DNA from: Myxococcota bacterium
GTDB lineage: Bacteria; Myxococcota_A; Bradymonadia; UBA7976; UBA1532
NCBI GenBank assembly: GCA_963169045.1
Contig: CAUJDF010000001.1
Coordinates: forward strand, 1 to 42,305
Reading direction: 5' to 3'
Length of the DNA stretch: 42,305 bases
Below, piece by piece: positions 4,001 through 18,023 of this stretch; within the stretch, counting starts at the first letter, position 1; every line of letters begins with the position of its first letter. The translations under genes were made by a program, and so were the position numbers. The notes under the pieces were generated by a model. That model saw only the letters and a program-made list of their open reading frames with translations. It was not told the DNA's origin and searched no databases.

Positions 4001-7000
4001 ATGCGCCTGATGCTGGCGTCGCCGCGCCTGTTCGCCGCCATCGCCCAGGAGGCAGCGAAGGCCGAGAACCCTGGCGAACGGTGGATCACCGTTCACCCGC
4101 ACGGCAAGGACGAGCCCGGCTACCCGGTGCTGATCAAGGTCGACCCGAACAACCCCCGCGTGGGCCGGATCATCGGCGGCGCCGGCGGGAAGTTGAACTA
4201 CGTGCAGGTCCACCTCAAGACGCCGGAGGAGTACCGGCGCGAGGCCAGCGTGCGCCGCGCCGAGAAGCGCGCCCGCGCCGAGGCGATGCGGAAGGGGGAG
4301 ATCGAATCGCCGAAGAAGGCGAAGTCGTTGGAGAAGCTCAAGGCCGACCGGGAAAAGACCGAGCAGGAGATCGTCAAGAAGCTCGCCGAGGTCCTCGGGT
4401 GGGGCAAGGGCGACGAGGTCATCCAGCCGGACCAGGACGCGACTCGAGGTCTCGACGACAAGGCCCGCGACAAGCTCCGCAAGGAGCACCTCAAGAGCCT
4501 CCTGCGCGACGCCAACCGGGCCGGCGAAGCCGCCAAGGAGTTGCTCCGCACCGACGCCCGCGCGCGCGCCGAAGCGGGCCTCGGCGAGCTGTCGATCAAG
4601 ACCGACGACACGCGCCTCGGCGCCGAGGACCTGCTCACCGACAACGAGTTGAAGGAGGCGCCCGGCTACCAGAAGGAGGCCAGCGGCGTCGACAACGACG
4701 ACCTGCGCGCCGAGCGCGTGCGAGCGTTGGAGAACCGGCTCAAGGACGCCACCGGCGGCGGCGCGCCAGAGGACGCCGCCCGCCTCGCGCAGCGCCTCGC
4801 GCGCTACCGCCCGATCGAGCAGCACGAGATCGAGACCGCGGACCCGTCCATGCTGTGCGGGTGGGCGCGGCAGGTCTGGCAGCGCTACGACCGCCTCGAC
4901 AACCTGATCGCCGCTCGCCAGGACATCGAGAAGAAGCGGGACGGCGAGGTCAAGACCGAGCACCCGATGGACGACGGCGAGCGCGCCGAGCTGGACGGGC
5001 TCGGCAAGCTGGTCGCCGGGATGCCGATGTCCGAGGCGCTCAACAACGCGCACAGCAGCTTCGGCAAGAAGCACCTGCGCGAAGCGCTGACGATCGCGGC
5101 GAAGCACGGCCTGCTCGATCCCAAGGAGGCGAAGCGCATCGACCGCGAGCGCGAGGCGCTGCGCTTCGAGGAGGCGAACGCACCGAAGCCCGAGGAGATC
5201 ACGCCGGAGAAGCTCGACGAGCTACCGAGCGAGGCCCTCGCGGTGCTGGTGGACGAGGCCGCCGGCCGGCTCCGCAACAACATCCTCCTGCCGGCCGAGG
5301 TCCGCGAGGAGGCGATGGTGGCGCAGACCGCGGCCCGCGTTGAGGTCGCCGGGACGCGCGCGCAGCAGGCCCAGGGCGACCGCCAGCAGACCCTGCCCGA
5401 CGGCGGCGCCACCGGCACCGGCCCGCAGCAGGACCTCGCCGAAGAGTCCGAGGTCGCGAGCATCCAGATGGACGACGAGCAGAAGCGCGCGTTCTTGAAA
5501 CGCGCGATCGAGCTCAAGGCCATCGGGACGAACGCGAAGCCGGAGCCGAGCAAGGAGGAGATGGACGAGCGCCGCGAGAACCGCGACGTGGCCATCGACG
5601 ACGGCGCGAAGGCGGCGCAGGTCTACCACCTGGTCACGAAACTCAAGGAGGTCAAGCGCGCGGCGCAGCGGGCGAAGAAGAAGATCGAGGCCGGCGAGTC
5701 GGTGCCGGGGCTCGAATACGATCCGGGCCTCGACACGGCGCCGGCCGAGAAGGCGGGGCGCGGCGGCGCCGTCGACCTGCACATCGACCCCAAGGTCGCC
5801 GAGAAGCTGGTGGCCGATCTCGAGGACGACATCCGCACGCACACCGCGCGCAGCTTCCTCGACCAGCTCCACGACGCCTACAAGGACGTCGCGTCCCAGG
5901 ACCACCTCAAGGCGGGCGAGGCCGAGCGCGACCTCTTCCACCACCTCGCGTTCGGCGCCGCGGACGCGATCAACAACCACGGCCAGACCATCCTCGGCGG
6001 GCCCGTCATCGACCGGCAGGCGATCGACACGCTCGGCGCCGAGGGCGCGGCGCAGCTCATGGCGTGGGCGGTGCACCAGCACCGCGGCGACGACGTCGAG
6101 GCCATCCACGGCGCCGTCGGCGACTACCACGCCGGCACGCAGAAGGATCAGGCCGAAGAGGCGATGTCCACGGCCCGGGAAGCCTACGAGACGGCCAACG
6201 AACTGCACCAGGGGATGCTGGCGAACGAGGCCGCCGACCTGCCGACGTGGCACGCGCTCAACCAGCAGCGGATCCAGCACCTGCACCGCGCGCGCGAGGC
6301 CCTCGGCCGCGCCCTCGGCGCGCTCGAATCGACGGCGGCGCTGCACCGCGCGCTCAAGAAGCCGCCGACGGACCAGATCCGCGTCTCGCTCGGCCAGACC
6401 GCCGTCGACACCGCGGCGTCGCAGGCGCGCGCGATCGGCCTGTCGCCGGACGACTACGAGATCCACCACGACGGCACGAACGCCTGGCTGCACGTCAAGG
6501 CCAGCGGCTTCCCGAAGCTGGTGCGGAAGGTCGACCCCGCCGACGCCGCCCTGCACGCCGACATGGAGGCGATCAAGGGCGGGCAGCACGACGAGCAGGG
6601 ATGGCTCCCGCAGGGCTTCGCTCGGCGCACCGACGCCCCGGTCTACTCGGGCCCGGCGGCACCGTCGCACGCCGAGCCCTTCGACTACGGTCTCGCCAAG
6701 CACGGCAACGTCAAGGAGGCGCTCGCCAGCTACATCGGCCAGCGCGTCAACGACGGATGGAGCCCGGCGCAGATCCACCAGGACCTGCTCCGCGACTCGC
6801 ACCGCCTCGCGTTCGACCAGCACGGCGGCGGCACGCCCGCGGCCGGCGGCGGTGAGCACCCCGAGCTGGCCGCGTGGGACCGCGACAACGTCGAGCCGCA
6901 GCGGATGGCGCCGTCGCTGTTCGGCGGCGAGGAGGAGACGGACGAGTGGCGGGCCTGGAAGCGGGCCCGCGACGAGCACGCGGCGCAGCTCGGCCCGGCT

Positions 7001-9709
7001 CCGGCGGCGGCCGGCGGCGGCGAGGGCGCTGGCGCGGCGCGCTTCAAGGAGTTCAACGACGCGCTCGACGAGCTCCTGCCCGGTCGCCACGAGGCCACCG
7101 GAACGAAGCAGATGGCCGAGAACTGGGGCCCCGCGATGCGGACGATGGCGGAGGAGTACATCCAGCGCCACCGCGGCGGCGACACGGCCGGCGCGCTGCA
7201 CCACCAGAAGCTGCACCCCGACCACGCCCGCGACGCCGCGTTCCGCGCCCTGGCCCGGCACCCCGAGGCCACGGTGGCGTTCAAGCCCGTCGAGGAGTTG
7301 ACCCACGCCGACCGCGAGGCGCTGCGGCTCGCCTACCACCGCTACCACGCCCGGAAGTCGAACGAGGGCGGCGCCGGAGATCCCGACGAGCGCATCGCGG
7401 CGTGGGAGCGCGCGAACGTTGAGCCCGAACGCTATGCGCCGTCGCTGTTCGGCGGCGAGGAGGAGACCGAGGGCTGGCGCGCGTGGAAGCGCGACCGCGA
7501 CGCCGCGCACGCGAAGTTCAAGGAGGAGGCGCAGGCCGACGAGCCGCTCGATTGGGAGGGCTACAAGAACGCCCACCGCGGCAGCCGCAACGCCTACCGC
7601 GCCATGCAGGACATCGTCCGCGGGCGCTACCTCGCCGACTTCAAGGCGCAGTACGAGGGCCTCGCGGGCGAACCGCTCAAGGCCGGCGTGACCGCCATCG
7701 AGGGCTGGCGCCAGCACCGGCACGCGATGGATCCCGAGTGGAAGGAGTACGAGCAGCAGCGGCGCGCCGCCGCGCAGGGCTCGCTGCAGAAGCGCGACCG
7801 CGGCAAGTTCGCCGCCGACGCCGTCCGCGAGCGCATCGACAAGCGACTCGAGGACGAGGGCGCGCTGCAGCAGCGCCAGCGCACCGCGTTCGACGACGAC
7901 CCCGGCGAGGGCCGCGCCCGCCCCGGCGGCGCCGGCACGCCCGCCGGCCACGAGCGCATCACGCTCGGCGATTCGCTCGAAGCGCAGCTCGCCGACCACG
8001 TCCGCGAGCACGCCGATCTCGTCGACCCCCGGCAGCCGTTCACGGCCCGCATGGGGATCACGATGGACGGCTCGAAGATCGACCAGCAGCGCGCCGTCAA
8101 GGCGTGGCTGCGCGCGAAGCGCATGGGCGTGTTCCTCGGCGCCGGATCCGGCAAGACCAACGTGAGCTTCGGCGCGTTCGGCGAGGCCCGCGCCCGCGGG
8201 CAGGCGCGGCGCGGCATGTACGCCGTGCCGTCGATCGTCCAGGGCCAGTTCGGATCCGAGGCGCTGGCCTACCTCGAACCGGGGAAGACGAAGTGGTGGG
8301 CCAAGGCCGGCGCGCCCAAGGAGGAGCGCTTCCGCGCCTACGGCGACCCCGGCAACCACATGGTCGTGGTCACGCACCAGGCGCTGCGCGACGACGTGAC
8401 CGAGATGGTGTCGCGCCACCTCGGGATCCCGCCCGAGGAGGTCACGACCCGCATGACGGGCTACGACGCCGAGGGCAACGAGGCCCCCGGCGCGTGGAGC
8501 GAGGCCGACACCGACAAGCACGTCGCCGACGCGCTGCGGAAGCACGGCGCCGACGGCCTGCTCGACTTCATGGCCGTGGACGAGGGCCACACCGCCCTCA
8601 ACCGCGCCGGCAAGCGTGACTCCCACATGGCCCGCGTGATCGACTCGCTCGGCCGCTTGTCGAAGCACATCGGGTACATGACCGGGAGCCCGGTGAAGAA
8701 CGACGCCAGCGAAATCTTCGACCAGCTCAAAAAGGTCGCGCCGCACAAGTACGGCGACGGCGAGGGCAAGGTCGGCCGCGCCGAGTTCCTGCGACGATAC
8801 GGCGTCGACACGACGGCGAACCGGGCCGCGCTCCGCCGCGAGCTGGGAAAGCACACGTTCCTCGGCCGCGTCGACCCCGGCACGAAGCCGAAGTACCACC
8901 ACGAGCAGCTCCCCGCGAGCGAGGCGCAGCGCCAGCGGCTCGCCGAGGTCGAGACCGCCTACCTCGACGCGCGGCGCGCGCAGCAGCGTGGCGAGGTCGA
9001 CATCGACGCGATGCGGAAGCTGTCTCCGGGCGCGTTCAAGGACGCCCCGCCGCACGAGCACCACGAGATCGCGAAGCGGCTGCAGGGGAGCGCCGGCATC
9101 ATCCGCGAGGCCGCCTACAACCACGCGATCAACGTGCACGAGGGCTCGGCCAAGTTCGACCGCGTCGCCGAGATCGTCGGCAAGCACGCGGGCGAGAAGG
9201 ACGCGAAGGGGCGCCCGAAGTCGGGCGTCGTCTTCGCTCGCAATCTCGACGCCGTCGAGGCGATTCGACGCCGGCTCGAGTCCGCAGGCCACAAGGTCGT
9301 CACCCTCACCGGCAAGGACGGCGCCGACAACAAGGCCAAGGCCAAGGAGGCGTTCCAGCGCGGCGAGGCCAACGTGATCGTGCTGTCCGACGCGGGCGCC
9401 ACCGGCGCGAACCTGCAGCGTGGCTCCTACCTCGTCGAGCACGACATCCCGCAGACGTTCATGACGTGGGACCAGCGGCAGGCGCGCATCAACCGCATCG
9501 GGCAGGAGCACCAGGAGCCCGACATCTACACGCTCGGCGTCGATCACCCGTGGGAGCACGCCAACCGCGACCGCTTGGAACGTAAGCGGGCGCTCAACGA
9601 CCTCTTCTTCGACGGGGCGACCGAGCGCCTCGACGACTCCGGGCTCGCGTACTATCTTCGGCAGCACCTGGCCAAGCGAGACGACGGGGCGGAGGCGAAG
9701 ACGGCGTGA
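4001..9709 (+). CDS. Giant polyvalent protein with C-terminal SNF2-type helicase
   Basis: A 1902-aa protein; ATG 4001 follows a GAGGGGG ribosome-binding site. The N-terminus has a hydrophobic stretch, EAAKA (17-21), then a small module beginning ERWITVHPHG (about 26-79) that is common at the start of phage polyvalent proteins. Residues 80-1300 are mostly charged, helical and likely coiled coil, with a duplicated 35-residue block around APSLFGGEEET (about 959-993 and 1135-1169). The C-terminal 600 residues form a superfamily 2 helicase: Walker A GAGSGKT (1380-1386), Walker B DEGH (1527-1530), TGSP (motif III type), and motif VI QARINRIGQ (about 1827-1835), the form seen in SNF2/DarB-like enzymes. 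By analogy with P1 DarB it could travel in the capsid and counter restriction; that is inference. The helicase call is firm. Confidence 0.88.
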   Translation: MRLMLASPRLFAAIAQEAAKAENPGERWITVHPHGKDEPGYPVLIKVDPNNPRVGRIIGGAGGKLNYVQVHLKTPEEYRREASVRRAEKRARAEAMRKGEIESPKKAKSLEKLKADREKTEQEIVKKLAEVLGWGKGDEVIQPDQDATRGLDDKARDKLRKEHLKSLLRDANRAGEAAKELLRTDARARAEAGLGELSIKTDDTRLGAEDLLTDNELKEAPGYQKEASGVDNDDLRAERVRALENRLKDATGGGAPEDAARLAQRLARYRPIEQHEIETADPSMLCGWARQVWQRYDRLDNLIAARQDIEKKRDGEVKTEHPMDDGERAELDGLGKLVAGMPMSEALNNAHSSFGKKHLREALTIAAKHGLLDPKEAKRIDREREALRFEEANAPKPEEITPEKLDELPSEALAVLVDEAAGRLRNNILLPAEVREEAMVAQTAARVEVAGTRAQQAQGDRQQTLPDGGATGTGPQQDLAEESEVASIQMDDEQKRAFLKRAIELKAIGTNAKPEPSKEEMDERRENRDVAIDDGAKAAQVYHLVTKLKEVKRAAQRAKKKIEAGESVPGLEYDPGLDTAPAEKAGRGGAVDLHIDPKVAEKLVADLEDDIRTHTARSFLDQLHDAYKDVASQDHLKAGEAERDLFHHLAFGAADAINNHGQTILGGPVIDRQAIDTLGAEGAAQLMAWAVHQHRGDDVEAIHGAVGDYHAGTQKDQAEEAMSTAREAYETANELHQGMLANEAADLPTWHALNQQRIQHLHRAREALGRALGALESTAALHRALKKPPTDQIRVSLGQTAVDTAASQARAIGLSPDDYEIHHDGTNAWLHVKASGFPKLVRKVDPADAALHADMEAIKGGQHDEQGWLPQGFARRTDAPVYSGPAAPSHAEPFDYGLAKHGNVKEALASYIGQRVNDGWSPAQIHQDLLRDSHRLAFDQHGGGTPAAGGGEHPELAAWDRDNVEPQRMAPSLFGGEEETDEWRAWKRARDEHAAQLGPAPAAAGGGEGAGAARFKEFNDALDELLPGRHEATGTKQMAENWGPAMRTMAEEYIQRHRGGDTAGALHHQKLHPDHARDAAFRALARHPEATVAFKPVEELTHADREALRLAYHRYHARKSNEGGAGDPDERIAAWERANVEPERYAPSLFGGEEETEGWRAWKRDRDAAHAKFKEEAQADEPLDWEGYKNAHRGSRNAYRAMQDIVRGRYLADFKAQYEGLAGEPLKAGVTAIEGWRQHRHAMDPEWKEYEQQRRAAAQGSLQKRDRGKFAADAVRERIDKRLEDEGALQQRQRTAFDDDPGEGRARPGGAGTPAGHERITLGDSLEAQLADHVREHADLVDPRQPFTARMGITMDGSKIDQQRAVKAWLRAKRMGVFLGAGSGKTNVSFGAFGEARARGQARRGMYAVPSIVQGQFGSEALAYLEPGKTKWWAKAGAPKEERFRAYGDPGNHMVVVTHQALRDDVTEMVSRHLGIPPEEVTTRMTGYDAEGNEAPGAWSEADTDKHVADALRKHGADGLLDFMAVDEGHTALNRAGKRDSHMARVIDSLGRLSKHIGYMTGSPVKNDASEIFDQLKKVAPHKYGDGEGKVGRAEFLRRYGVDTTANRAALRRELGKHTFLGRVDPGTKPKYHHEQLPASEAQRQRLAEVETAYLDARRAQQRGEVDIDAMRKLSPGAFKDAPPHEHHEIAKRLQGSAGIIREAAYNHAINVHEGSAKFDRVAEIVGKHAGEKDAKGRPKSGVVFARNLDAVEAIRRRLESAGHKVVTLTGKDGADNKAKAKEAFQRGEANVIVLSDAGATGANLQRGSYLVEHDIPQTFMTWDQRQARINRIGQEHQEPDIYTLGVDHPWEHANRDRLERKRALNDLFFDGATERLDDSGLAYYLRQHLAKRDDGAEAKTA

Positions 9710-10008
9710 GCACGCGCCCGACGAGCCAGACGAGCGACGATCCGACTGCGACACACCGCGAGAACGTGCGCCGCAACCTCGCGCGCGTCGAGGGCGCGCT
9801 GCGCCTCGCCGAGCACCACCACGGCCAGATCCGCGCCGGCCTCATGCGGGAGCACGACGACATCGTGCGCGACATCCATCACCACCAGCGCCTGCTACTC
9901 GACCCGAAGGCGGGGCCCTGGACTGCCGAGGATCGCGCCGACTACGAGCGGCTCCTCGACCGCCGGCACCACATCGAGACCTTGCTGCAGGGAGGCGAGG
10001 AGCAGTGA
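9706..10008 (+). CDS. Small helical protein, unknown function
   Basis: A 100-aa protein starting at GTG 9706, whose GTGA overlaps the stop of the helicase gene, so it is probably translated by coupling. It is rich in His, Arg, Glu and Leu and predicted by eye to be almost entirely helical (residues 18-95), with an HHHG and an IHHHQ cluster. No family is recognised. Its position suggests an accessory subunit or chaperone of the giant protein, but this is only inference from adjacency. Confidence 0.65.
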   Translation: MSTRPTSQTSDDPTATHRENVRRNLARVEGALRLAEHHHGQIRAGLMREHDDIVRDIHHHQRLLLDPKAGPWTAEDRADYERLLDRRHHIETLLQGGEEQ

Positions 10009-10271
10009 TCGAGCTCGAAACCGAGGAGCAGGCCGAGCAGCTCGTGACGGCGGCGCAGGCCGTCTCGCTGATCGCCGACGCCGACGAGGAGGCCATCGAC
10101 CCCGAGGGCTTCCGCCGCCGCCGAGACCGCGAGCGACGGCGCGGGAAGTCGCTCGCGCTGGTGTGCGCGCTGGCGGGGCTCGGCGCGTCGGCGCCCAGGC
10201 CGGAGCCGGTGCGCCGCGCCGCGCCGGCACGGCCGCGCCAGCGGTCCAGCCACAGGGCGGCGGGGGGCTGA
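10005..10271 (+). CDS. Small acidic/basic protein, unknown function
   Basis: An 88-aa protein from GTG 10005, again with a four-base GTGA overlap with the preceding stop. The N-terminal 35 residues are acidic and helical, the middle is very basic (RRRRDRERRRGK), followed by a short hydrophobic stretch ALVCALAGLGA, then a Pro/Arg-rich tail. No family is recognised. The short hydrophobic run is too weak to call a membrane segment with confidence. Confidence 0.55.
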   Translation: MIELETEEQAEQLVTAAQAVSLIADADEEAIDPEGFRRRRDRERRRGKSLALVCALAGLGASAPRPEPVRRAAPARPRQRSSHRAAGG

Positions 10272-10273
10272 CG

Positions 10274-10510
10274 ATGCCGCTCTACGAGTACAAGTGCGAC
10301 GAGGGCCACATCACCCTCGACCTGCGGAAGATCGACGCCCGCCACGACCCCCACGTCTGCGAGACCTGCGGCGCGCCAGCGGCGTTCACGCCGTCGGTGG
10401 CGCGCACGTACATGAAGGCCGACGGCTTCCAGAAGGCCATGCCGTCGCGGCCCGGCTTCGACAACTGCGACTACAAGAACCGGCGCTGGCCCGCCGAGCG
10501 CGCGGGCTGA
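10274..10510 (+). CDS. FmdB-type zinc-ribbon protein
   Basis: A 78-aa protein. The MPLYEYKC opening with C8, H12, C29 and C32 is the hallmark of the FmdB/CxxC_CxxC_SSSS zinc-ribbon family, small regulators or adaptors whose exact function is unknown. ATG 10274 was chosen because it lies two bases after the previous stop, has a GGGGGG run just upstream, and matches the family's usual N-terminus; the frame is open further upstream but only as overlap with the previous gene. The C-terminal half (GFQKAMPSRPGFDN) is phage-like. Confidence 0.8.
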   Translation: MPLYEYKCDEGHITLDLRKIDARHDPHVCETCGAPAAFTPSVARTYMKADGFQKAMPSRPGFDNCDYKNRRWPAERAG

Positions 10511-10514
10511 TCGA

Positions 10515-10769
10515 GTGCCCGCCGTCGCCTGCGACGGGTGTGGCGAGGTCCTCGGCGACCTCGACGGCCCGAACGGCGCGCTCAAGGCGCGTCGGGTCTC
10601 GATCAGCAACGGGCGGATGCGCGTGAAGTGCCCGAAGTGCCATCACCACCACGAGGTCGGCGGCGTGGCGGTGGTGCGGAGCGGCGAGGCGGGGAAGGCG
10701 ACGGCGCCGCGGGGGAAGCTCGCCGTCGTGGTCGTGCACCGCGCTACGGGCGACAGCGGCGCAGGATGA
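10515..10769 (+). CDS. Small zinc-ribbon protein with C-terminal EAGKA-hydrophobic tail
   Basis: An 84-aa protein from GTG 10515. Two CxxC knuckles (C6/C9 and C39/C42) separated by about 30 residues form a treble-clef or ribbon-like zinc site, similar in layout to Com-type translational regulators of Mu-like phages, though the similarity is too weak to assign. The C-terminus carries EAGKA (58-62) followed by a hydrophobic AVVVV, the same order as at the end of the methyltransferase gene. Its 3' end overlaps the convergent minus-strand gene by 26 bases. Confidence 0.65.
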   Translation: MPAVACDGCGEVLGDLDGPNGALKARRVSISNGRMRVKCPKCHHHHEVGGVAVVRSGEAGKATAPRGKLAVVVVHRATGDSGAG

Positions 10770-11034
10770 CGGCCCCGCCGTCGGTGCCGACCGGCTCCCA
10801 CCCGTCGGGCACGGCGCAGCCCGAGACGAGCGCGGTGCAGCTCCGGTCCATCGTCGGCAGCCAGACCTTGACGTCCCAGGCCGCGCAGGCGCCCGCGGTC
10901 GTCTCGCTGGCGCTGGACTGAGACACCTTCCCGGCGGCAGCGCCCGTGACCCCCGCCACGAGCACGCCGACCGCCACGAGCATCGCCGTCCGGCGCCGCC
11001 GCTCGCCCTGCCTCACCTCCAACCGCTTCGCCAT
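10744..11034 (-). CDS. Small membrane-anchored or exported four-cysteine protein
   Basis: A 96-aa minus-strand protein. I chose ATG at 11034 because a GGGAGCAGGG purine stretch precedes it and the N-terminus then reads as a standard signal: a basic stretch with RRRR (12-15), a hydrophobic helix from residue 17 to 34, then a polar domain with four cysteines (C50, C66, C73, C94) that could form two disulphides outside the cytoplasm. No family is recognised. It is the only minus-strand gene inside the plus-strand early/head cluster, so it probably has its own promoter. Surface exclusion or lysis help are possibilities, but nothing in the sequence proves either. Confidence 0.6.
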   Translation of the reverse strand: MAKRLEVRQGERRRRTAMLVAVGVLVAGVTGAAAGKVSQSSASETTAGACAAWDVKVWLPTMDRSCTALVSGCAVPDGWEPVGTDGGAVILRRCRP

Positions 11035-11048
11035 GATCCCTGCTCCCG

Positions 11049-11078
11049 TTGACTCTCGATGGTGGTGCCGCATAGCCT
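11049..11078 (+). promoter_or_regulatory. Candidate sigma-70-like promoter before the large hairpin
   Basis: TTGACT at 11049-11054 (five of six consensus bases) is followed after 18 bases by TAGCCT at 11073-11078 (weak, three of six). The surrounding 11065-11105 is AT-richer than nearly all of the window. It would fire rightward into the hairpin and the head genes. On the other strand TTGTTC and TATGCG, 16 bases apart, could serve the minus-strand gene but match poorly. Confidence 0.4.
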
Positions 11079-11100
11079 AGCGGCAAACAGGAACAAGGCG

Positions 11101-11192
11101 AAAGCCGGGCGTTGTCCACGCCCGCGGACCCGAGGGGGCTGATCCCTCCTCTCGGGCCCGCGGGGTCTCCGTGGATGGCGCCCGGCTTTTTT
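11101..11192 (+). terminator. Very long stable hairpin ending in six T: terminator or structured RNA
   Basis: Arms pair in nested order: AAAGCCGGGCG (11101-11111) with CGCCCGGCTTT (11179-11189), TCCAC (11115-11119) with GTGGA (11171-11175), CCCGCGGACCCGAG (11121-11134) with CTCGGGCCCGCGGG (11151-11164, one A-C mismatch), and GGGG (11135-11138) with TCCT-type pairs (11147-11150), leaving an 8-base loop. Six T follow (11187-11192). This is about 33 base pairs in 89 nt. It separates the polyvalent and head modules. Read as coding it would need TTT TTT CGT codons that are rare here, supporting a non-coding role. If the promoter upstream is real, a discrete RNA of about 105 nt would result. Confidence 0.75.
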
Positions 11193-11207
11193 CGTTTCGG
11201 GGCCGGC

Positions 11208-12281
11208 GTGTACGCGGGTTGGCGCCAGCAGATTGCGTTCGGTGACGGGTACGCGGACTTCGTGCCCGCGCCCCCCGTGCGTCTCGGCTGGTACGACGAG
11301 GCCGCGAAGGCGGGCTCGGCCGGTTTCGCCTCGCCCGAGCTGGTCATCGAGAACGGGGTACGGAAGCGCAACGGCGTCACCGTCCCCGTCGGCGCCCGGT
11401 GGGTGTGGTTCCGGTTCTCGGACGAGCGTCCCGACCTCGAAGGCGAGGTCATGGACATCGAGTCGATCCGCAAGTTCGCGTCCTACGTGATCGCGCAGGC
11501 GGGCTGGATCGACCTGAACCACTGGTCCCGGCCGGGGAAACTCCCGCCGGAGATGCTCGCCGCCGGCCGGAGCCCCGAGGAGTACGTGATCGGGGCCCTC
11601 ACGGGCATCCGCGTCTCTCCCGACGGCGTGGCCTACGCCGAGGGCTTCTTGTGGCCCAAGGGCGTCAACGCGCACGCCGATACGGCGTGGACGTGGCTGC
11701 AGATGGCGCCCGAGAAGGTGCACTGCAGCGTCGGCGGCCCGGCGATCAGCCGCGAGCGCGAGCGGCTCCCCGATGGCCGGTGGATCACGCGGCTCAAGCT
11801 GCTCATGAACCACCTGGCCGTCTGCAACCAGGGCGTGCACGTCGACACCGAGGTACGCACGGCCCCGTTCGGGGAGTTCACCAAGGCGCTACTCGGCGGC
11901 GTGCCGGACGAGCCCTGCGACGGCGAGGGCTGCGTGCCGTGCTTCATCCGTGGCCACCGTGAGCCCGGGAAGGGCGTGGTGTCGGCCGGCGGCACGGGCG
12001 GGATCAACAGCACGGGCGCGGTCCCCGAGGACCTCGAAGGCGCGCCGCGCCCGGGCAAGACCTCTGGTGGGGCGCGGAAGGCGTCTCGCCGTGAAGTGGG
12101 GCTCGAGGACGGGCCCCAGGACTGCGTGCACCTCCGGGGCCGTGGCACGTTCGCCAGCGACAAGGCGGCGATCGACCACATGACGGACTGCCTCGGATGG
12201 AGCGCCCAACGGGCGCGAGACACGCTTCGACTCGCCCGGAGCGGTGCGCCCGGCGCGAACAGAGGGAGTGAGGCGGCATGA
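11208..12281 (+). CDS. Putative prohead maturation protease
   Basis: About 357 aa. By pattern it is a herpesvirus-assemblin-fold prohead protease like T4 gp21: a histidine in IDLNHW (H105), a nucleophile serine in VHCSVGG (S174), and a downstream LMNHLAVCNQGVHVDT segment like the third conserved strand. It would cleave scaffold and capsid proteins inside the prohead, and it sits directly before the scaffold and capsid genes as expected. GTG 11208 was preferred because GGGG lies five bases upstream and the hairpin ends at 11192; ATG 11175 or TTG 11112 would place the start inside the hairpin. The protein contains EAAKA (bases 11298-11312) and EPGKG (11961-11975), possible self-cleavage sites. 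The last 100 residues may be a separate Ser/Arg-rich region. Start uncertain, family moderately sure. Confidence 0.72.
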   Translation: MYAGWRQQIAFGDGYADFVPAPPVRLGWYDEAAKAGSAGFASPELVIENGVRKRNGVTVPVGARWVWFRFSDERPDLEGEVMDIESIRKFASYVIAQAGWIDLNHWSRPGKLPPEMLAAGRSPEEYVIGALTGIRVSPDGVAYAEGFLWPKGVNAHADTAWTWLQMAPEKVHCSVGGPAISRERERLPDGRWITRLKLLMNHLAVCNQGVHVDTEVRTAPFGEFTKALLGGVPDEPCDGEGCVPCFIRGHREPGKGVVSAGGTGGINSTGAVPEDLEGAPRPGKTSGGARKASRREVGLEDGPQDCVHLRGRGTFASDKAAIDHMTDCLGWSAQRARDTLRLARSGAPGANRGSEAA

Positions 12282-13114
12282 ACGCGATGGATCGGCTCCG
12301 GGCGCAGTCGGCGCGCCTGACCGCGATGCTTCCGGGCAACGAGCCCGGCAAGGCGATGGGCGCCCCCGAGCCCGGCGGCGCGATGGCGCCGGCACCGGCC
12401 GGCGGCGGCCCGACCCCGGGCGCGCCCGCCGCGCCCCCGGCGGCGCCCGCGCGCCCCGCCGCGCCGGCCGCCCCCGCGGCTCCGCCGCGCCGGCCCGCCG
12501 CCCCGCCGCCCGGCGGCGCGCCCGGTGGCGCCGCGCCGGGCCGCAGCGGCGACGACAACGGCGAGGAGCCCGACGACGACGAGAACCCCGACGAGCCCGG
12601 GAAGGCGCTGCAGCTCCCGCCCGGCACCGAGCAGGTCACGCTGCTCGACGGCGAGGCGTTCATGGCGCACATGGGCGCGCTCGTCGAGGAGCGCGTCAAG
12701 GCGCTGCTCGATCAGCACCTGGCGCCCGTCCACAAGGCGCTCGACACGATCGCCGAGGCCAACGTGGCGGCGCTGGCGGGCCTCGAAGAGACCGGCAAGG
12801 CGATCGGCGCCATGCGGGCCCTGCCGGCGGGCCACATGCCGACGCGCGGCGTCGCGGGCTCGAACGCTCTGCCGGCGACCGCGGGGCAGCGTCTCGGCGA
12901 CCCGCCGCCCGTCCTCGACGGCATGGCTCAGGTCAACGAGAAGCTGAAGTCGCTGGACGCCACCGGCCGTGAGCGCGTGCTCATGCCGCTCGTCTACGAG
13001 GGCCAGATCGGCATGGGCGACGCGCAGTGGGCGGTGAACCACGGCGAGTTCCGCGCCGACACCACGTTCAAGAACCCGGACGCCGTCAAGGCGGCGCTCA
13101 AGGACGCCCGCTAA
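12278..13114 (+). CDS. Probable capsid scaffold protein
   Basis: A 278-aa protein starting at ATG 12278 in a four-base ATGA overlap with the protease. Residues 24-105 are an extreme Ala/Pro/Gly-rich linker and acidic segment (DDDENPDEPGK); residues 125-180 look like a long helix; the C-terminus is a compact charged domain. Scaffold proteins are typically helical, low-complexity and encoded between protease and capsid genes, which is why I call it so. EPGKA occurs twice (residues 22-26 and about 106-110), flanking the linker, and may be cleavage sites. No direct family match is seen. Confidence 0.6.
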   Translation: MNAMDRLRAQSARLTAMLPGNEPGKAMGAPEPGGAMAPAPAGGGPTPGAPAAPPAAPARPAAPAAPAAPPRRPAAPPPGGAPGGAAPGRSGDDNGEEPDDDENPDEPGKALQLPPGTEQVTLLDGEAFMAHMGALVEERVKALLDQHLAPVHKALDTIAEANVAALAGLEETGKAIGAMRALPAGHMPTRGVAGSNALPATAGQRLGDPPPVLDGMAQVNEKLKSLDATGRERVLMPLVYEGQIGMGDAQWAVNHGEFRADTTFKNPDAVKAALKDAR

Positions 13115-13165
13115 CCGGGCATGGCGCTGGCGGGGCGTCCCGGCCGGCGGAGGTAGGTGTACTCG

Positions 13166-14779
13166 ATGAGCGACCAGCAGTACCGGACGGAAGGCAACAT
13201 CAGCGGCCTCGTCGTCCCCCTGAACAGCCAGATCATCGGCCAGCTCGGCGGCGTCGAGCGCGTCAAGGCGATGGTCAACGTCGGCGGCGCGACCGTGATC
13301 CCGCTGTCTGCCGACGTGCTCCGCATCATGGGCGGCGAGGAGCGCCTCAAGGCCGTCATGATGGCCGGCGGCGCGGACGGCATCAACGCGCAGGGCGCGG
13401 TGCCCGAGAACCTGGAGATGACGGCCCACGTCTATCTCTGGCGCCGCGAGCACCTGCAGTTCATGCGGATGATCCCGAACGTGCCCGCCGCGAGCATCAA
13501 CCACGAGTACGACGTGGTGACGAGCTACGGCGACGTCGGCGGCCCGATCTTCACCGCCGAGGGCACGCTCGGGTCCAAGGAATCGCTGCGCGTCGAGCGG
13601 CACGTCAACCGCATCGTGACCCTGCAGCACGTCAACCAGGTCACGGGGACGGCCCAGGATCAGAAGACCGTCTCGATCCTCGGTGCCACCCGCGCGCTCG
13701 AGTCCAACCGCGAAGGCGTGATGCGCCTCCACCTGCTCAAGAAGTCGGTGGCGACCATCTTCGCCGACACGAGCACGACCGCGTCCGAGCTGCGCTTCAA
13801 GGGCGTCCTGCAGCTCTGGCGCGAGAAGCGGTCCAGCGCCGACTTCGCCGACGAGCCGTGGTCGATCGACGCCGACGTCTTCGTCGACCGTCGCGGCGGC
13901 CCGCTGCGCCGCTCCGACGTCCGCAGCGCCGGCACGCGCATGTTCGAGGAGGCGTGGGGCCAGGGCAACCTGCTGGTCATGGACCCGCAGACGTCCGAGG
14001 GCTTCCAGGGCGAGATCGAGAAGATCGGCTCGAACGGCGCCGTCATGGAGCGCATCGACGCCTCGAAGGTGAACGAGGGCATCATCCTCGGCACCACGAT
14101 CGCCGGCATCCAGCACCAGGGCGGCGTCGCGAAGTTCGTCGTCGACAACACCCTGCACCCGTCCTTCCACAAGGCCGAGTGGAAGGGCCAGCCCGCCGTC
14201 GGCGCGCCGTCGCAGCCCGCGGTCCCGACCGTCACCGTGCTCAACGCGAACGCGAACAGCCGGTGGGAGGCCGCGGACCTCAACGGCGCGAACGCCGTGA
14301 TCAAGTACAAGATCCAGGCGGTCAACGATCAGGGCTACTCGGAGTCGAGCGCCGCGACCGCCGCGATCGACGGCCTGGACGCCGGTGACTCGGTGCGGAT
14401 CACCATCACGACCCGCGCCGACGCCCACAGCTACCGGATCCTCCGCAACACCGCCGAGAAGCCCAACGTCTTCTGGGAGGTCGCGGAGATCAAGAACACG
14501 GCCGCGACCGTCACCCACGACGACCACAACTACTTCCTGCCCGGTGGTCGGTGGGCGCTGTTCCTCGAGATGCTGGCGCCGCGCTCGAAGGAGAACCGCC
14601 TCGGTGCCAACCCCTACGACAACGCGATCCGCTACGCGACGCTGCGCGAGCTGACCGCGCGCAAGATGGCCGACATCGGCGACTTCGAGTGGGAGCGGCT
14701 GATCGAGCGCTTCTGCCCCGAGGTTCCGCAGCCGTTCCGCGTCATCGTGTACTACAACATCGGCACGCGCGGCCTGTAA
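13166..14779 (+). CDS. Major capsid protein with inserted Ig/FnIII-like domain
   Basis: A protein of about 537 aa, the best candidate for the HK97-fold major capsid protein by position, size and the conserved central region (HEYDVVTSYGD, IFTAEGTLG) seen in capsid proteins of large myoviruses. Around residues 345-455 there is an inserted beta domain with KYKIQAVNDQGYSES and SYRILRNT, typical of fibronectin-III/Ig folds used as surface decorations. ATG 13166 is preceded by AGGTG at a six-base spacing; a GTG at 13157 in the same frame sits too close to GGAGG but cannot be excluded. The N-terminus contains RTEGN, a possible cleavage point for the prohead protease. A weak hairpin (14800-14821) follows the gene. 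Confidence 0.82.
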   Translation: MSDQQYRTEGNISGLVVPLNSQIIGQLGGVERVKAMVNVGGATVIPLSADVLRIMGGEERLKAVMMAGGADGINAQGAVPENLEMTAHVYLWRREHLQFMRMIPNVPAASINHEYDVVTSYGDVGGPIFTAEGTLGSKESLRVERHVNRIVTLQHVNQVTGTAQDQKTVSILGATRALESNREGVMRLHLLKKSVATIFADTSTTASELRFKGVLQLWREKRSSADFADEPWSIDADVFVDRRGGPLRRSDVRSAGTRMFEEAWGQGNLLVMDPQTSEGFQGEIEKIGSNGAVMERIDASKVNEGIILGTTIAGIQHQGGVAKFVVDNTLHPSFHKAEWKGQPAVGAPSQPAVPTVTVLNANANSRWEAADLNGANAVIKYKIQAVNDQGYSESSAATAAIDGLDAGDSVRITITTRADAHSYRILRNTAEKPNVFWEVAEIKNTAATVTHDDHNYFLPGGRWALFLEMLAPRSKENRLGANPYDNAIRYATLRELTARKMADIGDFEWERLIERFCPEVPQPFRVIVYYNIGTRGL

Positions 14780-16566: not shown

Positions 16567-18023
16567 TGGGCTTCGAGCGCGGGAAGGGGCGCGGCGCAGC
16601 CCCCGTCGGCGGCGGAGGCGGCGGCGAGACGGAGACGCCGGTGGCCGCGACCGGGCTGCTCACCGTCGGCGGCGAGCCGTCCGGCTATATGTTCGGCGAG
16701 GGCTTCACGCTCCCCGACGGCATCGACGACCCCGTCAACTTCACCTGGACGAACACCGGCGGCATCGGCCCGAGCTACAACGGCACGCAGATCGACACCG
16801 GCGGCGGGCCATCGGCGGCGCAGCTCGCGGCGCGCATCACCGCCGCGATCAACGCGCACGCCATCCGCGTCACGGCCACCGACAACGGCGACGGCACGGT
16901 CTCACTCGAGAACGACGTGCCGGGCTCGCACGGCAACGCCGCGATCACGCTGATCGGCTCGTTCACCGAGGGCTTCGAGGTCGAGGGGATGTCCGGCGGC
17001 GCTGGCGACGCGGCGCCCCTCACGGCGATCACTGGCCTGCAGCGCTCGCAGAACCTCGCCGACCTGCCCGACCCCGAGGCCGCCCGCGTGGCGCTCGACG
17101 TCGGCTACGGCGTCGGGTCGACGAGCGGCGATCACGGCTTCGCCGTCGGCGACACGATCCGCGGGAACTTCGGCCTGTGGGAGAAAGCCACCGCGGACAG
17201 CCCCTCGAACGCGGCCGGCATCGTCGGCATCGTCGTCGAGGTGCCGACGTCCACGACGTTCCGGTGGGCCGAGGCGGGGCAGGAGATCGACCTGTCCGGC
17301 GCCAACGAGGGCACGCTCTACTGGCTCGACACCGTCGCCGCCGGAGCGCTTTCGCCGACCGAACCCACCGCGCCGGGCCAGGTCAAGAAGCTCATGGCCA
17401 TCGGCGTCGGCGACGACCGCGCCGTGGTCGTGAACGGCCCCGCGATCCCGGTGCAGTCGGTCGCGGTGCAGGCCGGCGCGACGCTCTACAAGACCGGCGC
17501 CGCCCCGGCCGCCGCGGACCCCGACCACGTCATCCCAGGCTTCGCCGCGAACGGCGGCAACATGCACAACGGCGTCGGCTTCCAGAACCCCGACGTGCCG
17601 CGCACGCTGACCTGCACGTTCCCCGCGGATTGGGATGGCGGCGACGTCACCGTGCCGATCTATGACCAGTACGGCCTCTTCTCCAACGAGGTCTTCGTCG
17701 CCGCCGGGAACGAGGGCACCACCGTCGCCGGCACGAAAATCTGCGCCTCGCTGGCCGGCAACGTGACCAAGGCGCAGGTCGGGGCCTCGGCCAGCGAGGT
17801 CACGATCGGCACCGGCAACACGCTCGGCCTCTACTTCCCGTCGGCGGGCGGCCCGGGCGAGACGCTGGTCAACGACGCCAACGTCGCGTGGAGCAGCGCC
17901 CCGGCGCTGATCGGTGCCACCGTCGACACGCTCAAGGACGCCTTCACCCCCGACGTGGTGCCGAACGGCGCGCTGACGTATCGTCTCCTCCTGAACGTCT
18001 ACCACCGCCACAACCTGACGTAG
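16566..18023 (+). CDS. Large beta-rich virion protein, possible decoration or head fibre
   Basis: A 485-aa protein. After a Gly-rich leader (residues 1-25) comes a domain (about 30-150) with FTLPDGIDDPVNFTW, IDTGG, AAQLAARITAAINAH and GTVSLENDVPGSHGN, an arrangement that recurs in phage structural and fibre proteins. The middle (165-300) resembles a capsid-decoration/fibre module (GNFGLWEKATAD, LYWLDTVAAGALSPT, KLMAIGVGDDRAVVV), and the C-terminal part (300-485) is another beta domain. It lies between capsid and connector genes, so a head fibre or decoration is likely. The exact family is not recognised. Confidence 0.55.
   Translation: MGFERGKGRGAAPVGGGGGGETETPVAATGLLTVGGEPSGYMFGEGFTLPDGIDDPVNFTWTNTGGIGPSYNGTQIDTGGGPSAAQLAARITAAINAHAIRVTATDNGDGTVSLENDVPGSHGNAAITLIGSFTEGFEVEGMSGGAGDAAPLTAITGLQRSQNLADLPDPEAARVALDVGYGVGSTSGDHGFAVGDTIRGNFGLWEKATADSPSNAAGIVGIVVEVPTSTTFRWAEAGQEIDLSGANEGTLYWLDTVAAGALSPTEPTAPGQVKKLMAIGVGDDRAVVVNGPAIPVQSVAVQAGATLYKTGAAPAAADPDHVIPGFAANGGNMHNGVGFQNPDVPRTLTCTFPADWDGGDVTVPIYDQYGLFSNEVFVAAGNEGTTVAGTKICASLAGNVTKAQVGASASEVTIGTGNTLGLYFPSAGGPGETLVNDANVAWSSAPALIGATVDTLKDAFTPDVVPNGALTYRLLLNVYHRHNLT

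Follow-up and report, generated by a model that had tools for sequence, protein, structure and literature searches.

Candidate promoter and long terminator hairpin at the entrance of a phage head operon

Gene content of the locus and its relatives

The window, by which we mean the whole stretch of DNA analyzed here, is one complete assembly contig of 42,305 bp with 72% G+C, within a genome assembly of 9 Mb. It carries part of a contractile-tailed phage, including a head protein (phrog_752), tail sheath, baseplate J and tape measure. The gene order at the studied site runs from a helicase-type protein through four small genes and a minus-strand ORF to a candidate promoter and a hairpin, followed by genes for a protease, a scaffold and the major head protein. 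The helicase-type protein (4001-9709) is very large at 1902 aa and has a helicase C-terminal domain; its N-terminal motif, GERWITVHP-GKDE...IGGAGGKLN, is present throughout the phage family and provides a good family marker. Two of the four small genes (9706-10769) are zinc ribbons, among them the last gene of the upstream operon (10515..10769, plus strand), which shows weak zinc-ribbon matches and weak similarity to the related contig L017. The minus-strand ORF (10744..11034) is a possible divergent gene for a 96-aa protein with an N-terminal hydrophobic segment; it is uncertain, its coding score is weak and ambiguous, and homology searches found no homologue.

The first gene of the head operon (11208..12281, plus strand) was assigned as a head maturation protease through its relatives, since the corresponding proteins of L021, L119 and L017 match phrog_1028; the protease of the window is 47% identical to that of L020. 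The second gene (12278..13114, plus strand) lies between the protease and the major head protein and is a probable scaffold gene; in L119, protease and scaffold are fused. The major head protein (MCP) gene (13157..14779, plus strand) was assigned by its match to phrog_752 (E 3e-26).

No close DNA relatives of the window were found in the searched collections, nor did single-protein pattern scans find direct relatives. A contig of another assembly from the same phylum (L017, assembly G253) has a matching order of helicase, zinc ribbon, protease, scaffold and head protein, and it was used as a bridge: alignments with it yielded 10 viral loci and then 11 genome loci. Further viral loci were collected by the head protein and a set of 80 by the helicase, a few of them already in the collection, and an iterated protease model then gave 96 loci. 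Removal of near-duplicates left 59 non-redundant loci, which comprise 23 window-type representatives and 36 representatives of a second type carrying a TCGTGAC motif. These loci are partly dependent on one another, and the TCGTGAC group and the starts of other genes served as controls.

The motif that defines the second type is strongly conserved about 22 nt before the protease start, where gTCGTGAC is followed by about 15 nt and then the start codon. It is found in 36 of the 59 non-redundant relatives and marks the protease gene in most (for instance L021, L039, L079 and L104, besides about 50 other loci). Loci of Novacetimonas hansenii (L031) and Oxalobacter (L038) belong to this second type. 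The element, which presumably resembles the 3' part of 16S rRNA, is absent from the clade of the window.

Candidate promoter, hairpin and probable protease start

The candidate late promoter consists of a -35 element TTGACT (11049..11054, plus strand) and a -10 element TAGCCT (11073..11078) separated by an 18-bp spacer. The earlier note had described this pair as promoter-like, and its sequence bears that description out: it has the top sigma70-type score on both strands of the 42 kb (13.2 bits, rank 0) and is the sole TTGACN-(16-19)-TANNNT in the window. Equivalents were found in L024, L026, L044, L112, L113 and L119. The -10 element is enclosed by a dyad, TGCCGC-ATAGCCTA-GCGGCA (11066-11086), and reads TAGGCT on the minus strand; it could therefore serve a divergent promoter for the minus-strand ORF at 10744-11034, or an operator. 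From the promoter spacing, transcription is predicted to start near 11085, about 15 nt before the stem. The initially transcribed region from 11079 to 11110 contains no T.

Positions 11100-11190 of the plus strand form a single nested hairpin of 91 nt, with stems of 21 (11100-11120/11170-11190), 7 (11121-11127/11158-11164) and 10 pairs (11129-11138/11147-11156) that add up to 38 bp. It has an 8-nt loop, a 5-nt bulge at 11165-11169 and several G-U pairs. The earlier note had put it at 89 nt and roughly 33 bp with a T6 end; the hairpin and its T6 are real, and the size is corrected to 37-38 pairs in 91 nt. The minimum free energy is -73 to -78 kcal/mol (-77.5 for 11085-11200), and none of 200 dinucleotide shuffles folded equally well (z = -6.8). 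With G+C regressed out, the hairpin is the strongest outlier of all 92-nt windows in the 42 kb (residual z -7.0; next independent -3.9), in keeping with its earlier description as nested and much longer than a normal intrinsic terminator. The TTTTTT at 11187..11192 is the only T6 in the window, where T5 occurs once elsewhere. Thus 11100-11192 has the two parts of an intrinsic terminator, a G+C-rich hairpin and an immediate U-tract, and is predicted to terminate transcription; by the strict definition given below it is the sole plus-strand terminator of the window. A generic promoter and terminator scan listed neither feature: its promoter rule sets a threshold of 9 matches out of 12, where the pair reaches 8, and its terminator rule missed the long bulged stem.

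The predicted terminated leader RNA is about 108 nt long (11085..11192, plus strand). Rfam 15 covariance models gave no match over the gathering score for the hairpin region, and no further copies of the hairpin were found in its own genome or plasmids. Being present there in a single copy, the hairpin was rejected as a mobile element or repeat. A bidirectional terminator was also rejected, as the minus strand has a mere TTT past the stem.

The open frame of the protease extends back to TTG 11112 and takes in ATG 11175 in the 3' arm, so that alternative starts do exist within the stem, as had been proposed. By codon statistics, however, coding begins only at about 11202: all six frames score negative between about 11030 and 11180, and the protease frame alone turns positive, from about 11202 onwards. 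If coding, the T6 would amount to two TTT codons, and the genes of the window use TTT 4 times versus 352 for TTC; reading it as Phe-Phe was rejected on this ground. The N-terminus of the L020 protein also agrees with a start near 11208, where a GTG lies outside the stem, 16 nt past the end of the T6. Since codon likelihood, the rarity of TTT and the L020 N-terminus agree, the T6 appears to be kept for a non-coding reason, with the gene beginning about 16 nt later at its probable start, GTG 11208. A translational switch for the protease gene, which the earlier note had offered as an alternative, is not supported in the window, where no frame of the arm looks coding and the stem does not include the probable start.

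Recurrence upstream of the protease gene

Terminators were defined strictly as a single hairpin with at least 0.55 kcal/mol per nt, an energy of at most -12 kcal/mol and 5 T in 9; a loose hairpin definition was dropped, as its background was about 0.2 per 250 nt. A strong intrinsic terminator lies at most 210 nt upstream of the protease in 24 of the 59 loci, versus 1 of 55 MCP starts and 17 of 374 starts of other long ORFs (Fisher P = 5e-13). Counted from the conserved protease domain over the same distance, terminators were found in 10 of 23 window-type loci versus 0.0096 expected per site (P = 7e-15) and in 14 of 36 TCGTGAC-type loci against a background of 0.0123 (P = 5e-18). In five loci (the window, L022, L024, L026 and L042) the terminator at the protease site is the sole plus-strand terminator in the 15-42 kb of each. 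Hairpin lengths at this site do not differ overall from those of terminators elsewhere (median 13 versus 12 pairs), and only the hairpin of the window is extreme.

On the MCP tree the terminator state changed at least 13 times by parsimony, and therefore the recurrence is not simple inheritance. Stem sequences are unrelated between clades, while the position before the protease is kept. The stems of five relatives from one clade (L113, L114, L115, L119 and L121) are alignable; 97% of their pairs are preserved, with 5 of 13 positions changed on both sides; in a control in which the partner was slid by one column, pairing fell to about 56%. Conservation of the stem by compensatory changes in relatives, on which the earlier note had let its candidate depend, is thereby borne out in this clade for the relatives' own stems.

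The promoter recurs as well. In the ten terminator-bearing window-type phages, the terminator usually follows a sigma70-type promoter match: the best one in the 160 nt ahead of the stem scores exceptionally well against its own contig (Fisher P = 9e-9). This pattern was first spotted by eye in a few loci that were among those scored afterwards. The match has rank 0 in the window, L113 and L119 and rank 1 in L026, and several relatives lacking a U-tract keep it (rank 0 in L044 and L027, rank 2 in L017). TCGTGAC phages with terminators provide an internal negative control, showing no sigma70-type promoter signal (P = 0.94). Six matches to the strict TTGACN-N17/18-TANNNT pattern occur near the site versus 0.08 expected. 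Spacers in the relatives' promoters are mostly 18 bp, and the -10 element is 22-48 nt from the stem in clear cases. In the cassette members that are clearly readable, the U-tract is followed by the start codon after about 16-30 nt, so no separate promoter fits between terminator and gene.

Other arrangements were observed around the same site. In many TCGTGAC relatives the terminator lies upstream of the TCGTGAC element and is a true module boundary; in L025, L033, L035 and L124 a long terminator hairpin lies between that element and the protease start, similar to the one that follows the promoter in the window. The nearest relatives of the window, L020 and L047, have no T-tract and only a weak promoter match; they carry a hairpin (17612-17645 and 5088-5120, respectively) with the ribosome-binding site in its loop and the protease ATG in its 3' arm. 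Because this hairpin stands in place of a U-tract terminator, regulatory elements of different kinds swap for one another upstream of the protease. Many relatives (e.g. L110, L113, L119, L049 and L073) have a second recurrent terminator some 2.9-3.2 kb past the conserved start of the protease, roughly where the gene for the major head protein ends; by the same definition, none lies at this place in the window.

Proposed antitermination and competing explanations

The computed support covers the hairpin, the U-tract, the promoter match, the non-coding T6 and the recurring architecture. We consider it moderately likely that promoter, leader and terminator make up one cassette at the head of this operon that stops transcription by default, with the head genes expressed by conditional readthrough involving an antiterminator. 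RNA polymerase would start at about 11085 from the sigma70-type promoter at 11049-11078, transcribe the leader of about 15 nt followed by the giant hairpin, and stop by default at the T6 (11187-11192), releasing the RNA of about 108 nt. The head genes, namely protease, scaffold, major head protein and those behind, start 16 nt past the T6 and would be expressed on readthrough. The best-supported form of control is that readthrough occurs late in infection, on condition that a processive antiterminator has loaded at the promoter or close to it, as Q of lambda or 21 does at pR'-tR', or AlpA. We infer promoter firing, terminator function, regulated readthrough and the factor responsible from the sequence and its recurrence.

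Position is the main argument for this reading. A terminator placed 3' of the promoter, with some 16 nt left ahead of the gene, must be read through if the head genes are to be expressed, and a promoter followed by a terminator directly before genes makes most sense if readthrough is used. Distant relatives repeat the arrangement with unrelated sequences, and thus a stop that has to be overridden probably holds back the head genes. Of the proposals in the earlier note, the promoter with a strong terminator is supported by its recurrence in divergent relatives, again ahead of the head protease gene, and by the compensatory pairing in one sub-clade. The position also partly suits a module-separating terminator that protects the head operon, except that this one stands after the promoter, some 16 nt short of the gene, and so needs readthrough.

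The main rival is a plain, unregulated terminator or insulator that would end transcripts of the upstream helicase operon and leave the head genes to whatever transcripts, begun upstream or at the local promoter, escape incomplete termination, with no antiterminator. The module-boundary terminators of many TCGTGAC relatives speak for it. Ordinary phage boundary terminators likewise place a GC hairpin and U-tract between the early/DNA and head modules. Unlike these, the terminator of the window sits after a promoter and immediately before a gene, with a stem about three times the usual length. In the window and window-type relatives, a terminator standing after the best promoter and ahead of the start codon would throttle highly expressed head genes without benefit. 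We regard a plain terminator as rather unlikely here. A post-transcriptional switch, in which the hairpin would sequester the protease start or act as an RNase III site for processing of the head mRNA, appears improbable. A 38-bp RNA duplex is a plausible RNase III substrate, and the hairpin of L020 and L047 does enclose ribosome-binding site and start codon; however, coding begins outside the stem in the window, the ribosome-binding region is free downstream in L113, L115, L119 and L110, and the T-tract and promoter enrichment call for transcription rather than translation. The adjacent zinc ribbon (10515-10769) has no Com-family match, and no relative of it was found in the L113/L119/L112 type. 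A switch similar to Mu com/mom was rejected, given the lack of a Com match and a coding start outside the stem. Very improbable is that the predicted RNA of about 108 nt is a dedicated trans-acting small RNA, with the terminator just its end. The spacing of promoter and terminator does define a short, very stable predicted RNA, close to the one of about 105 nt, from near 11085 to the T-run, that the earlier note had envisaged; a function of its own finds no support in an Rfam family, an alignable homologue or another copy in the genome or plasmids, and stems that differ wholly between clades at a kept position are as expected for a cis element. This RNA is more likely a by-product.

Among known systems, the Q factors of phages lambda and 21 load at the late promoter and let polymerase bypass a terminator before the late genes (PMC6606751), while AlpA of Pseudomonas aeruginosa is an antiterminator bound in the alpB and PA0807 promoters that lets polymerase bypass the terminator(s) there (PMC7969949, PMC9371919). 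The site in the window is probably a late cassette similar to lambda pR'-tR', with regulated readthrough for the head genes. Like lambda pR'-tR' and 21 PR'-tR', its sequence places a sigma70-type promoter and a close intrinsic terminator before late genes, and a short terminated leader would be expected. In contrast to both phages, the terminator lies directly before the first head gene, the hairpin has 38 bp, and the records searched yielded no Q-family gene: no antiterminator of this family (PF06530, PF03589) scored over the cut-off in 16 related phage records (many of them fragments), the G253 assembly or the genome itself. Lambdoid Q systems have a -10-like pause site, which is also absent here, as 11079-11110 holds no T. 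Reading by eye revealed neither a conserved pause-like element in the relatives' initially transcribed regions nor an evident shared motif between -35 and -10 (Q-binding element) in their spacers, and co-occurrence brought out no gene specific to cassette carriers as a candidate antiterminator. We thus do not class the cassette as a Q system, given that no antiterminator was found in these records and that the pause site is absent. The intrinsic terminator(s) between promoter and first gene are shared with AlpA-controlled alpB and PA0807, except that AlpA acts on a cellular lysis locus and the present site serves a head operon. A put-type RNA as in HK022 was rejected, with just about 15 nt between predicted start and stem and no Rfam match, and an attenuator or riboswitch was rejected because the leader is too short.

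To our knowledge, the control of late phage genes by antitermination has been worked out well only for the lambdoid phages and a small number of others. We tentatively raise the possibility, itself rather unlikely, that an uncharacterised and widespread family of tailed phages keeps its head operon under processive antitermination, with a factor and loading site unlike Q, N, put and AlpA, and that such cassettes arose many times at the same genomic site. The promoter-terminator pair is conserved in position and unrelated in sequence among phages of about 48 to 72% G+C, which points to a common, undescribed way of delaying the synthesis of capsids. Should this require a factor, the phages would encode or recruit an antiterminator outside all searched families, and the site would offer a ready reporter for finding it.
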